Source: Sphingobium subterraneum
GTDB taxonomy: Bacteria; Pseudomonadota; Alphaproteobacteria; Sphingomonadales; Sphingomonadaceae
Reading direction: 5' to 3'
Assembly: GCF_014199435.1 (NCBI RefSeq)
Contig: NZ_JACIJP010000001.1
Location: forward strand, 1-64,000
DNA length: 64,000 bases
In this document: in pieces, positions 45,257 through 49,262 of the stretch
How positions within the stretch are numbered: position 1 is the stretch's first letter
How the letters are laid out: every line of letters begins with the position of its first letter
The notes under the pieces: model-generated
The model's input: only the letters and a program-made list of their open reading frames with translations
Told to the model about the DNA's origin: nothing
Databases searched by the model: none
Program-made: the position numbers and the translations under genes

Positions 45257-45289
45257 TTTATGTGACATTTCCTTTTCATTTTCATGACA
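45257..45289 (-). promoter_or_regulatory. Pho box upstream of phoB
   Basis: On the minus strand three successive 11-base units read TGTCATGAAAA, TGAAAAGGAAA and TGTCACATAAA, the first and third matching the TGTCAY half of the Pho box and spaced exactly 22 bases. It starts inside the phoR stop codon and ends about 110 bases before the phoB ATG. Confidence 0.65.
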
Positions 45290-46574
45290 CAAGCGTCGTG
45301 TCCGGATTTGCCCCATCCCGCGATGATGCCGATGGCGTGGTGGGAAGCAGGACGGAGACGGTCGTGCCCTTGCCCACCACACTGGAAATATCGAGCCGAC
45401 CGCGATGCCGTTCAACGATGTGCTTGACGATCGCAAGGCCGAGTCCGGTTCCTCCGACGGCGCGACTGCGGCCCGAATCGACGCGATAGAAGCGCTCCGT
45501 CAGGCGAGGCAGATGATCGGGGGAGATGCCTTCGCCCTCGTCGCTGACTGTAATCCGCAACATCTCCAGCGAATTGGCGACGATCGACAGACCAATGGGG
45601 GTGCCCGCCCGCCCATATTTCGCGCTGTTGTTCACGAGGTTGTGGAGAAGCTGGGACAATTGCGCCGTATCCCCCTGAATCGGCCCCAGGCCGGGTGCCA
45701 CGTCGCAGGCAATGTCCTGCCCTCGCTTGCCAAGGCTTTGTCGCGCGTCGGCCGCAACCTGTTTAGCCAGCGCGCCGATGTCGATGGTTTCGGCAGGCAG
45801 ACGATGCTTGTCCGCCTCGATGCGGGAGAGGGACATGAGGTCGTCGACCAATTGCTGCATGCGCCGCGCCTCGCCGTCGACGATACCCAGAAAGCGCGTT
45901 CGCGTTTCCAGGTCTGCGCCCACGTCCGGATCCGCCAGAGTCTCGATGAAACCCAATATGGCGGCAAGCGGGGTGCGCAGTTCGTGGCTTGCGTTGGCAA
46001 CGAAATCAACGCGCGCGCGCTCGGCGGCATAGCGGCTCGTCTGGTCGAGCATATGCACGAGGAGGCGCTGCGCCCCGCTATCGGCATCGATGGGGACGAT
46101 TTGCATCGACCAGCGCTGGTCCCGCGCGCCCAGCCCGACAATGTCGAGCGTAAGGGGGGTGGTGACCGGGTCCGTGCCCGAAAGGCGCTCTGCAGCGGCG
46201 GGGTGCCGGATCGCGAGCCTTATGTCCTCGCCTACGATATGGTTGCCGAGCAGGCGCAGCGCGGCGCGGTTCGCGAGCGCCACGCGGCGCTGGTCGACGA
46301 CGATCATCGGGTCGGCCAGTCCATCAAGAATGCGGGTGAAGCTGTCATTGTCCAGCAGATCGGTCGATGCGGTGCGCGGTATGGGGGGCGCCGCCGGATT
46401 GGTTTCCTGCTCTGCCTCCGTCATGCCCTGAACAGCAATAAGGACTGCGCAAATCAGGAGGATCAGAAGGCCGGCGGCGTTTATCCCGGCGAAGATCCCA
46501 ACAATGGCGCCCGCACCCATAATCGCCAGACTGGCGATCCATCGCGGAGTTCGGCCTTGATTCATGGTTAGCAT
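45282..46574 (-). CDS. phoR: Phosphate regulon sensor kinase PhoR
   Basis: A 430-residue membrane histidine kinase. Two N-terminal helices (ASLAIMGAGAIVGIFAGI, LLILLICAVLIAVQG), a PAS-like domain (about 75-185, ILDGLADPMIVVDQRRVALANRAALRLLG), HisKA with VDFVANASHELRTPLAAILGFIETL, and HATPase with NLVNNSAKYG, SDEGEGISPDHLPRLTERFYRVD and GGTGLGLAIVKHI. The pairing with PhoB is by adjacency and family. ATG 46574 or 46565 is the start. Divergent from the Tat-exported protein of the HPr-rel locus. Confidence 0.88.
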   Translation of the reverse strand: MLTMNQGRTPRWIASLAIMGAGAIVGIFAGINAAGLLILLICAVLIAVQGMTEAEQETNPAAPPIPRTASTDLLDNDSFTRILDGLADPMIVVDQRRVALANRAALRLLGNHIVGEDIRLAIRHPAAAERLSGTDPVTTPLTLDIVGLGARDQRWSMQIVPIDADSGAQRLLVHMLDQTSRYAAERARVDFVANASHELRTPLAAILGFIETLADPDVGADLETRTRFLGIVDGEARRMQQLVDDLMSLSRIEADKHRLPAETIDIGALAKQVAADARQSLGKRGQDIACDVAPGLGPIQGDTAQLSQLLHNLVNNSAKYGRAGTPIGLSIVANSLEMLRITVSDEGEGISPDHLPRLTERFYRVDSGRSRAVGGTGLGLAIVKHIVERHRGRLDISSVVGKGTTVSVLLPTTPSASSRDGANPDTTLVS

Positions 46575-46657: not shown

Positions 46658-47113
46658 ATGACGGATGGTCCGGGGGATAGAGCTGCAGCGGATGCCGCTT
46701 CTCAAGCGAAGAATCGTGACAGTGACGTGACAGCGCCGGGCGCAGCCGTGCCCAGCCGTCGGCAGTTGCTGATGGGTGGTGCGGTGGCCGCGAGCGCGAT
46801 CATTTCCATCCGCCCCGCGCTCGCGCAGACGGCGGCATCGGTATTGCATTGCCAGGTGCCAGTGCCAGACGCCCCGCGCTCCGGCGGCCTGATCGCCGCT
46901 GACGGATCGGTCGTGCCTGCGGGAACTCCGGGGGCGTTTCCGGGCTCCGGGCGGCCGTTTACGGGTGAGGAGGTCAAGGCCGCATTGCGGGGCGGGCGGA
47001 CACTTCCCGGCACGAGCTATAGTCAGAACAACGCCTATCTCAACTACATCCGGCGCCTGCAATCCGGCACGAGCGGGTTCACCTGCTACGCGTCGTTGCA
47101 GATGCCGCGCTAA
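46658..47113 (+). CDS. Small Tat-exported protein of the HPr-rel-A-type locus, candidate substrate
   Basis: A 151-residue protein from ATG 46658. PSRRQLLMGGAVAASAIISI (about 32-51) is a twin-arginine signal with cleavage after RPALA (56/57). The ~95-residue mature part is Gly/Pro/Ser-rich with two cysteines (VLHCQVPVPD, GFTCYASLQMPR) and a Tyr/Asn-rich stretch SYSQNNAYLNYIRRLQSG. No known domain. It is the first of four same-strand genes with PqqD-like, HprK-like and nucleotidyltransferase products, so it may be the peptide they modify. A longer start at 46601 is possible but adds nothing conserved. Its family is not recognised. Confidence 0.65.
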   Translation: MTDGPGDRAAADAASQAKNRDSDVTAPGAAVPSRRQLLMGGAVAASAIISIRPALAQTAASVLHCQVPVPDAPRSGGLIAADGSVVPAGTPGAFPGSGRPFTGEEVKAALRGGRTLPGTSYSQNNAYLNYIRRLQSGTSGFTCYASLQMPR

Positions 47114-47131
47114 GATTATCGTGCATTTCGG

Positions 47132-47407
47132 GTGACGCATTACCGGCCGGCAGGGAAGGACGCGCTGGTGGTGCGGTCGCTCGACGGGTTCACTCTGCTG
47201 TACCATCGGCCGTCCGGTCAGACGCATCTAGTTGCGAGCCCAGTTCCCGAGATAATACAAGTATTACAAAAAGTTGATGCCGATATTTCGACTCTTTACG
47301 AGGTTTTGGCGCATGATTTTGATCTGGGGGATCGTGCTGAGGCGATTGCCGAATTGACCCACCATGTGGATGCGCTCGTAGCCCTCGGTCTCATACGGCC
47401 CGCATGA
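47132..47407 (+). CDS. PqqD-like peptide chaperone (HPr-rel-A system type)
   Basis: A 91-residue PqqD-fold protein. The GTG at 47132 is the only possible start because a stop precedes it in frame. Conserved features are LDGFTLLYHRPSGQTHLVASPVPEIIQVLQ and an acidic C-terminal helix. PqqD/RRE folds hold the leader of a precursor peptide for modifying enzymes. It lies 18 bases after the Tat protein gene and overlaps the kinase gene by four bases. It fits the family named 'HPr-rel-A system PqqD family'. Confidence 0.75.
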   Translation: MTHYRPAGKDALVVRSLDGFTLLYHRPSGQTHLVASPVPEIIQVLQKVDADISTLYEVLAHDFDLGDRAEAIAELTHHVDALVALGLIRPA

Positions 47408-48270
47408 AACATCGCATCACGCTCACAATTGGCCCCGCGACGTTCCGCCTGGGATCGCCTTGGAGGGAGCCGATCACCTGGTTGAAGCGGCTCTATGCCG
47501 ATTATCCACAGCAGCCGGACGCCATTGCCGACTTCACCGTGCGACTGGATCCGGCCGGGCCGCTCAGGCGCTGGCTGCATCCCTCCGTCCGTATTGCCGG
47601 GGACCATATGCTGGCCGACGCCGCGCCCATGGCGCTGCGCCATGGACTGCTCGCGGCGGAAATGGGCATGAATTTGCAGATGGCCCTGGGATGGCGGCGG
47701 CACCTTTTGATCCACGCCAGTTCGGTGGAGAAGGGCGGACGCGTACTCGTGATGACCGGCGAATCGGGGTCGGGCAAGTCGACGCTCGCCGCGCTGCTGG
47801 GCGAACGGGGCTGGCGTTTCATGGGCGACGAATTCGCGCTGATTGATCTGGACGATGGACGGATCCTGCCGTTTCCCCGGCTGGTGTCGCTCAAGAACGC
47901 GGCGATCGATGTCATGCGGGCGGAAGTGCACGATGAAGGGCGGTTCGGGCCGCTGCTCTTTGCCACGCCGAAGGGTGACATCCGTCACCTGGCGCCGCCG
48001 CGCGGGGCCATCGGCCGCATGGGCGAGGGCGCGCCGCCCGCCCTGTTGCTGTTTCCCCGCTTCGGTGCCGACCCGGAACTGCGTCCTGTGGGACAGGCGG
48101 AAGTGTTCGTGCGCCTGACGCAGGCGTCGACCAACTATGTCGCCTGTGGCGAGCGGGGTTTTGACGCGTTGCACCGCTTCGTCACCGCAGTCCCCGCAAT
48201 GGCGATGGACTTTCCCGATGGAGACCGGGCGGTGGGGCTGGTCGAGGACCTGTGGAGCCAACTGTCATGA
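47404..48270 (+). CDS. HprK-related kinase A
   Basis: A 288-residue protein with an HPr-kinase-like P-loop domain: IHASSVEKGGRVLVMTGESGSGKST (Walker A about 119-127) and GDEFALIDLDDG. The first ~95 residues lack the N-terminal HprK domain of Gram-positive HPr kinases, and no ptsH gene is next to it. Lasso-peptide kinases such as ThcoK share this fold and phosphorylate a serine in their precursor. It is coupled by ATGA overlaps to both neighbours, so kinase, chaperone and nucleotidyltransferase are one translation unit. Confidence 0.8.
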   Translation: MKHRITLTIGPATFRLGSPWREPITWLKRLYADYPQQPDAIADFTVRLDPAGPLRRWLHPSVRIAGDHMLADAAPMALRHGLLAAEMGMNLQMALGWRRHLLIHASSVEKGGRVLVMTGESGSGKSTLAALLGERGWRFMGDEFALIDLDDGRILPFPRLVSLKNAAIDVMRAEVHDEGRFGPLLFATPKGDIRHLAPPRGAIGRMGEGAPPALLLFPRFGADPELRPVGQAEVFVRLTQASTNYVACGERGFDALHRFVTAVPAMAMDFPDGDRAVGLVEDLWSQLS

Positions 48271-49262
48271 GCGGGCGGCTTCTGGTCGATGTGCTGCGCG
48301 ATCCCGCCCGGGCGACGGTGCTGAGCGGGGGGCTGTGGAACGCGCTGATCGCTGCGGCGCGGGCGGAACGGCTGATCGGCACGCTGGCAGTACGGCTGGA
48401 CGGGCTCGATGTGCCCCCCGCCGCGGCGCGCGTGCTGGCTGATGGCCGTGCGGAAGCGGAGCGCGAGAAGCGGCATGCGTTGTGGGAGGCCGACCGCGCG
48501 ATGCAGGCGCTGGGGCCGCTGGGAATGCCGGTTATCGCGATGAAGGGCACCGCCTATGTCGCGGCCGGGCTGACTGCGGGCGAAGGACGGTTTATCGGCG
48601 ATCTGGATATCATGGTGCCACACGATGCGCTGGACGACGTGGAGACGGTGTTGCTGGCAGCGGGGTGGGAATGGGTGAAGCCGGACCCTTATGACGACGC
48701 CTATTACCGACAATGGATGCACGAGTTGCCGCCGATGATCCACCGGGAGCGCGACAGGATGATCGACGTGCACCACACCATCCTGCCGCTGACCGCGCGG
48801 CCGAAGCCGGATGCGACTGGTATGATCGCGGACAGTGTGGCGCTTCCCGGCGGGCTGCGGGTGCTGAGCGCGGAGGATCGCGTCTGCCATGCGGTGGCGC
48901 ATATGCTGGCGGATGGGGATCTTGGGGGAGGGCTGCGAAACCTATGGGATATCAAATGCTTGTTGAACGATATTGAGGATTGTTCGGCGCTTTTCAGGCG
49001 CGCGGATCGTCATGGTTTGACGGCGCATTTGACCCGAGCGGAGCGGCTTGCGGACGCCGTATACGGAACGCGCACCGCCCGGCTGTCGATGGTTGACCGA
49101 GTGTTTGTGGCGCGGCTGACGGCGACCGATGGCTGGGGACGGGACGGGCGCAAGCTTCTGGGGCTCGCATTTTACGTCCGCTCGCATCTCCTCCGCATGC
49201 CGCTCACCATGCTGCTGCGCCACCTGTGGACCAAATGGCGCAAGGGGCATCGGCCGGTCTAG
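48267..49262 (+). CDS. Nucleotidyltransferase family protein (NTP_transf_5-like)
   Basis: A 331-residue protein from ATG 48267, overlapping the kinase stop. The core motifs are MKGTAY (about 92-97), then GDLDIMVPHD (about 111-120) with the metal-binding D-x-D, and MIDVHHTI later. This pattern matches the uncharacterised nucleotidyltransferase family PF14907, frequently beside HprK-related kinases and in lasso-peptide clusters. It may transfer nucleotidyl or further phosphate groups to a phosphorylated peptide. It is convergent with gph, overlapping it by four bases. Confidence 0.78.
   Translation: MSGRLLVDVLRDPARATVLSGGLWNALIAAARAERLIGTLAVRLDGLDVPPAAARVLADGRAEAEREKRHALWEADRAMQALGPLGMPVIAMKGTAYVAAGLTAGEGRFIGDLDIMVPHDALDDVETVLLAAGWEWVKPDPYDDAYYRQWMHELPPMIHRERDRMIDVHHTILPLTARPKPDATGMIADSVALPGGLRVLSAEDRVCHAVAHMLADGDLGGGLRNLWDIKCLLNDIEDCSALFRRADRHGLTAHLTRAERLADAVYGTRTARLSMVDRVFVARLTATDGWGRDGRKLLGLAFYVRSHLLRMPLTMLLRHLWTKWRKGHRPV

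Follow-up and report, generated by a model that had tools for sequence, protein, structure and literature searches.

Loci named HPr-rel-A are widely distributed, and the named NCBIfam models cover only a kinase and a PqqD-like protein. What do these proteins act upon? A locus of this kind lies at positions 46,658–49,262 of the window analysed here, a stretch of 64,000 nucleotides from Sphingobium subterraneum (assembly GCF_014199435.1, contig NZ_JACIJP010000001.1, forward-strand positions 1–64,000). The best candidate for the missing HPr-rel-A substrate is the product of the first gene of this four-gene cassette, a small protein with a predicted twin-arginine translocation (Tat) signal; as the putative substrate of the cassette it is well supported by comparative genomics. 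The fixed Tat partner of HPr-rel-A and its C-terminal motif are new here. A search of the open-licence PubMed Central literature gave no match for HPr-rel-A or HprK-related kinase A, for PqqD together with exosortase, or for PEP-CTERM together with HPr kinase.

Organization of the cassette

The cassette consists of four open reading frames (ORFs), all on the + strand, with 18 bases between genes 1 and 2 and joins between genes 2 and 3 and between genes 3 and 4 that both read ATGA. This organization was first described in a sequence-only reading of the same DNA, and its coordinates, gap and overlaps were all verified, as were the identities given to genes 2 to 4. Gene 1 (46658–47113, ATG start) encodes 151 amino acids of no known family, without a Pfam or NCBIfam match at E ≤ 1. 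Gene 2 (47132–47407, GTG start, 91 amino acids) matches TIGR04353, "HPr-rel-A system PqqD family peptide chaperone", with 57.1 bits (cut-off 35), and gene 3 (47404–48270, ATG start, 288 amino acids) matches TIGR04352, "HprK-related kinase A", with 228.8 bits (cut-off 200). Both curated cut-offs are exceeded by adjacent genes, which places the two middle genes in HPr-rel-A. Gene 4 (48267–49262, ATG start, 331 amino acids) encodes an enzyme of family PF14907 (E 3.5e-47) with a nucleotidyltransferase fold. PF14907 and TIGR04352 over its cut-off occur once each in the source genome, both at this locus; TIGR04352 has one further match, a weak one of 26.6 bits.

The gene 1 product has the sequence features of a Tat substrate, with twin arginines at residue 34 (nt 46757), a hydrophobic stretch and an Ala-Leu-Ala site at residue 56, and TatC is encoded in the source genome. 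The N-terminal region and signal together span 56 residues (46658–46825) and may also serve as a leader for the PqqD-like protein. Two cysteines lie in the predicted mature part, and near its end is the sequence TCYASL (47081–47098), whose serine is the proposed modification site.

Co-occurrence of the small protein and the kinase

Among 199 genomes of the family Sphingomonadaceae, 61 encode a kinase with a TIGR04352 match over the cut-off; some match at E ≤ 0.001 is present in 189, and the short or sub-cut-off ones were left uncounted. Profiles grown from the window proteins detect the nucleotidyltransferase at all 61 kinase loci (window included), the PqqD-like gene at 60 and the small protein at 58, always on the strand of the kinase and in constant order. 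All four genes stand on one strand and in the same order at 57 of the 60 other loci. Among these 57, the nucleotidyltransferase of L034 is cut by a contig end, L079 has a larger gap ahead of the PqqD-like gene, and at L062 (G007) the small protein, kinase and nucleotidyltransferase look frameshifted, which may reflect decay or a sequencing error. Three kinase loci, L045, L047 and L063, were found to lack the small protein, and L063 also lacks the PqqD-like gene.

Genome-wide searches with a model of the small protein (an alignment of 36 rows, the window and 35 family loci) recover 61 of the 199 genomes, and these are the same 61 that carry the kinase, with no discordant case. Three of them have unlinked copies: in G042 and G122 the small protein is encoded far off on the contig of the kinase, and in G040 it lies together with a PqqD-like gene on another contig, away from the kinase. 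Six genera (g22, g36, g44, g51, g54 and g69) contain both positive and negative genomes, and kinase and small protein agree in every one. The Fisher p value of 9e-53 for this association ignores relatedness and is not to be taken literally. The proposal that the four genes form one system was to fail if they did not co-occur in other genomes; with 61 of 61 genomes concordant, it is not refuted on this count.

Distribution beyond the family

When GTDB genomes were scanned with a closer small-protein alignment, 338 relatives were found; the 80 best, mostly from Sphingobium and Sphingomonas, were kept. Among these best 80, every locus with enough downstream sequence (77/77) has the PqqD-like, kinase and nucleotidyltransferase genes downstream. 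About 1.3 kb separates the small-protein gene from the PqqD-like gene in 23 of 78 loci of this set (for example at L256:6533-7732). The three inserts that were read all encode GT4 glycosyltransferase-like proteins, and Pfam confirms this for two (PF00534, E about 1e-29).

Kinases over the cut-off are also found in 11 of 385 genomes drawn from the class (9 of them outside the family), 88 of 196 from the order and 61 of 398 from the phylum, the last two draws including genomes of the window's own family. Because a generic profile of the Tat signal failed to detect many precursors beyond the order, candidates were called by position, as a twin-arginine ORF upstream of the PqqD-like gene. This rule yields candidates at 57 of 60 family loci, 34 of 34 order loci, 8 of 9 class loci and 29 of 37 phylum loci. 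It missed L163, L197 and L198, where twin-arginine ORFs are visible, and its clearly wrong picks (L153, L162, L191 and L195, as well as L126, taken in the wrong frame though a fitting ORF is present) were kept in the count. The ninth class locus, L125, has its twin-arginine small ORF (L125:794-1054, − strand) downstream of the nucleotidyltransferase instead, and an ORF that by eye resembles polysaccharide export proteins is also present in this locus. A number of phylum loci are truncated or have no detectable PqqD-like gene; that gene is found at 28 of the 37 and the nucleotidyltransferase at 24. Across the phylum, the PqqD-like gene usually has a Tat-signal protein encoded ahead of it. Six precursors from other lineages have no NCBIfam match over a cut-off, with two weak matches below.

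A serine motif near the C-terminus

Many relatives have a similar signal, of the type P-[AV]-[VI]-x-T-L-x-x-G-x-A-x-A. The body of the protein is hypervariable, so the family profile matches class-level examples weakly (E 3e-6 to 0.014). Apart from the signal, the recurrent features are a mostly even number of cysteines and a C-terminal [ST]-C-x-x-S-hydrophobic motif. In its strict form, [ST]-C-[WFYLIVM]-x-S-[LIVFYM] within the last 60 residues, the motif is present in 115 of the 128 candidate precursors, compared with 0.14 expected when each mature region is shuffled; these are descriptive figures, as the motif was defined after inspection of the same sequences, and related ones do not count as independent cases. 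It is found in 57 of 57 family, 32 of 34 order, 21 of 29 phylum and 5 of 8 class candidates. The number of cysteines in the predicted mature part is even in 113 of the 115 motif-bearing precursors.

Other observations, like the late definition of the motif, weigh against its serine as a general site of modification. The strict motif is missing from 13 of the 128 candidates, some of which the script had picked in error. Other lineages have a second, longer type of precursor without the motif (L124, L127, L197, L198, L208, L210, L211, L214 and, loosely, L205), which combines a Tat-like signal with CxxSG, SPGxW and AxYLNA-like features. The precursor of L209 fits neither type and truly lacks the motif. 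Given these precursors, the motif serine cannot be a universal acceptor. The model of the mature small protein from the window is of moderate quality (pLDDT, the predicted local distance difference test, 70.7), with the motif in its low-confidence tail; a fold search with this weak model gave no match below E 1.

The PqqD-like protein, the kinase and the lasso-peptide comparison

TIGR04353 identifies the gene 2 product as a PqqD/RRE-like protein (RRE, RiPP recognition element; RiPP, ribosomally synthesized and post-translationally modified peptide), the component sought in RRE-dependent RiPP clusters. PF05402 is matched at E ≤ 0.1 by 18 of 32 homologues of the PqqD-like protein, the window copy not among them, and comparison of the PqqD profile with solved structures (PDB) gave no convincing PqqD match. 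According to PMC7470986, PqqD-like proteins are known peptide binders and their presence is treated by RiPP miners as a sign of a RiPP cluster. A term search of the main texts of that paper, on RRE-Finder, and of a 2025 RRE paper (PMC12710340) found neither 'HPr' nor 'kinase'.

Four residues of the kinase, His104, Lys125, Asp142 and Glu143, are each kept in 141 of 141 kinase sequences. Sequence comparison with solved structures gave weak P-loop matches only (HprK, 1jb1, E 0.17). The kinases of lasso-peptide clusters (PadeK, ThcoK and SyanK) are described in PMC9266682 as having a His-Lys-Asp-Asp set and phosphorylating a conserved precursor serine. Compared by this published description, the predicted catalytic set of the cassette kinase is close to that of these peptide-phosphorylating enzymes and differs in its fourth residue, Glu instead of Asp.

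The likeness extends to the module as a whole. The lasso tailoring module, as described in the same source, likewise contains an HprK-like kinase, an annotated nucleotidyltransferase, a PqqD/RRE-like protein and a precursor with a conserved serine near its C-terminus. It differs from the cassette, whose precursor has a Tat signal and about 95 mature residues and whose serine is not C-terminal. A lasso-peptide cluster was considered and rejected: a search of the draft genome for the leader protease domain Transglut_core3 found nothing at E ≤ 0.001, and the lasso cyclase model finds a single protein below its cut-off (204.5 bits vs 525), away from the cassette and beside the gene for exosortase A (XrtA). 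No lasso pathway is thus seen in the draft genome, in agreement with the sequence-only reading, which had proposed a system without lasso formation. The sub-cut-off match in the source genome is at G000:C1:457860-459539, and a similar one is given by the XrtA-associated amidotransferase TIGR03108 (L206:11259-13181). The likeness of TIGR03108 to lasso cyclases, with PqqD-like, kinase and nucleotidyltransferase genes nearby in other lineages, may point to a common origin with the tailoring modules of lasso peptides.

These features could also be read as those of a RiPP-like pathway, in which the small protein would be a true precursor, phosphorylated or nucleotidylated and then cut outside the cell to release a short C-terminal peptide active as a signal or antimicrobial. 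The hypervariable body, recurrent signal, short conserved C-terminal core motif and PqqD/RRE-like partner are all consistent with it, but no gene for a protease or dedicated exporter recurs in the four-gene unit, and the even cysteine numbers, with cysteines near both ends, suggest a disulfide tying the C-terminus to the rest of the protein. Release of a short active peptide is accordingly considered unlikely.

The nucleotidyltransferase

Three aspartates of the gene 4 product (Asp112, Asp114 and Asp167) are invariant in 56 aligned sequences, and in a wider set of 127 rows the same columns hold Asp in 125/125, 125/125 and 124/124 of the sequences with a residue there. The structural model (pLDDT 91.0) has a pol-beta nucleotidyltransferase fold. 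Its best structural match is MenT1 (Z 13.8, root-mean-square deviation [rmsd] 2.5, 173 residues), and it also resembles ANT(2'') and LnuA (Z about 11.5) and, less closely, FKRP (Z 7.9, rmsd 4.5, 157 residues). FKRP is a sugar-alcohol-phosphate transferase, and the substrates of ANT(2''), LnuA and MenT enzymes are small molecules or RNA. Foldseek gave nothing below E 0.001 (best 3.4e-3), and the sequence has no relative in the PDB at E ≤ 10.

The nucleotidyltransferase of the lasso module, PsmN, is reported in PMC9266682 to put hexoses on phosphoserine, and that review leaves open whether it is a true nucleotidyltransferase; PsmN and the cassette enzyme are likened here by description only. If the comparison holds, the group that the cassette enzyme donates may equally well be a sugar or a nucleotide.

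Genomic neighbourhood

Context outside the family was taken from 39 loci (30 wide and 9 class), with up to about 9 kb of sequence fetched per side. Exopolysaccharide genes of the XrtA type were counted when at least one BLAST match was obtained with PrsK, PrsR, TIGR03108, TIGR03087, FemAB or XrtA as query; matches to PrsT only (L195, L213) and a partial match (L221) were left uncounted. One representative each of PrsK, PrsR, TIGR03108, TIGR03087, FemAB and PrsT exceeds its NCBIfam cut-off, and the XrtA query was identified by BLAST only. Such genes lie near 19 of the 39 loci. Within the family, XrtA over its cut-off is present in 56 of the 61 kinase-positive and 73 of the 138 kinase-negative genomes (p 2e-8, uncorrected for relatedness). 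The likeness to XrtA/PEP-CTERM exopolysaccharide clusters is one of shared neighbourhood: the cassette genes are not exosortase, PEP-CTERM or known exopolysaccharide enzymes, and the family cassette is usually beside phoR. Among the second-type loci L197, L198, L205, L208, L210, L211 and L214, XrtA-type genes are present in 6 of 7.

A role for the cassette in exopolysaccharide or XrtA-related functions has its own counter-evidence. No counted XrtA-type gene is near the other 20 of the 39 loci, the 73 kinase-negative family genomes have XrtA without the kinase, and XrtA over its cut-off is missing from 5 of the 61 kinase-positive ones. In the source genome XrtA is about 410 kb from the cassette, and the glycosyltransferase-like insert is missing in 55 of the 78 loci.

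The same neighbourhood would suit an explanation in which the substrate of the kinase and nucleotidyltransferase is a small molecule or else an exopolysaccharide or lipid intermediate, with the Tat protein assisting the same pathway separately in the periplasm. The XrtA context, the GT4-type inserts and the small-molecule or RNA substrates of the closest solved nucleotidyltransferase folds all point this way. Set against it are the peptide binding known of PqqD-like proteins (PMC7470986), kinase residues near those of peptide-phosphorylating kinases, a co-occurrence of the small protein that is complete even where it is unlinked, and the arrangement in G040, where the PqqD-like gene goes with the small protein and not with the enzymes. 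A small-molecule target is thus quite unlikely.

Upstream of the cassette and divergent from it is a gene for a PhoR-like kinase (45282–46574, − strand), outside the claimed cassette, whose best match is TIGR02966 (284.0 bits, under the cut-off of 334.2); a PhoB gene (TIGR02154, over cut-off) follows. The downstream ORFs, identified by eye, encode a phosphoglycolate-phosphatase-like protein, GlmU and GlmS. The sequence-only reading had tied the cassette to phoR-phoB as a signalling system, and control by PhoB in phosphate starvation would fit the divergence of phoR from the small-protein gene in 122 of 130 sphingomonad cases (window included, one at 1.9 kb; the two locus sets behind these cases may share species). 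In the other families of the order, 10 wide loci were inspected: all 10 have gph-like and 6 have pst-like genes nearby (by eye), and 3 have XrtA-type genes. Beyond the family, though, XrtA-type genes are found instead or as well at the 19 loci noted above, and a weak Pho-box scan found matches of at least 10/14 in 37 of 121 orthologous regions against about 11 expected from mononucleotide shuffling. The best match in the window (46716–46733, 12/14 to a Pho-box consensus) lies inside the coding sequence of gene 1; it is a Pho-box-like direct repeat, GTGACAG-tgac-GTGACAG. Over long distances it is therefore the association with XrtA and exopolysaccharide genes that recurs, whereas phoR adjoins the cassette in the window's family. 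The tie to phoR-phoB comes down to synteny, and a phosphate-starvation signalling system is very unlikely. What is retained of the earlier proposal is one system acting on the small Tat protein, its likely substrate in view of the complete co-occurrence, the phylum-wide Tat precursors and the kinase residues.

MdcG/CitX-type enzymes attach a nucleotide-derived prosthetic group, and a corresponding role here, in which the nucleotidyltransferase would load such a group onto the serine to make a small redox or acyl carrier that is Tat-dependent because it folds with its cofactor, would suit the Tat signal on a small cysteine-containing protein and the intact aspartates of the nucleotidyltransferase fold, but it is highly improbable, as the body is not conserved as expected of a carrier, no fold match was obtained below E 1 (though with a weak model) and the kinase is left unexplained.

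A model for modification and export

We favour a model in which the gene 1 product is made with its N-terminal leader and Tat signal and would be bound by the PqqD-like protein, which would present it to the HprK-type kinase. The kinase would then use ATP to phosphorylate the serine of the C-terminal [ST]-C-x-x-S motif. Acting second, the pol-beta-fold nucleotidyltransferase would extend the serine phosphate with a sugar-phosphate or nucleotidyl group to give a phosphodiester-type decoration. The marked protein would leave by Tat, after which its paired cysteines may form one or more disulfides, and at the cell surface it may work in exopolysaccharide- or XrtA-related envelope functions. The proposed chemistry is borrowed from work on lasso peptides, and the suggested surface role is drawn from the gene neighbourhood. 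As a whole, from PqqD presentation to surface role, the model is held with slightly better than even confidence.

A more specific and rather doubtful extension is that these widespread Tat-exported proteins, with their C-x-x-S serine marked in the cytoplasm by the PqqD-kinase-nucleotidyltransferase machine, would use the phosphodiester-linked sugar or nucleotide as an anchor or primer joining protein to exopolysaccharide in XrtA-type bacteria. If true, this would amount to a novel type of system for linking proteins to glycans.

For HPr-rel-A, a named but orphan system of wide distribution, the analysis offers specific candidates for the substrate and for the acceptor residue, together with a functional neighbourhood, and thereby makes the reaction testable. 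Should the chemistry hold, phosphoserine chemistry of the lasso type would reach beyond short peptides to proteins that are exported, and would become connected with the biology of exopolysaccharides.

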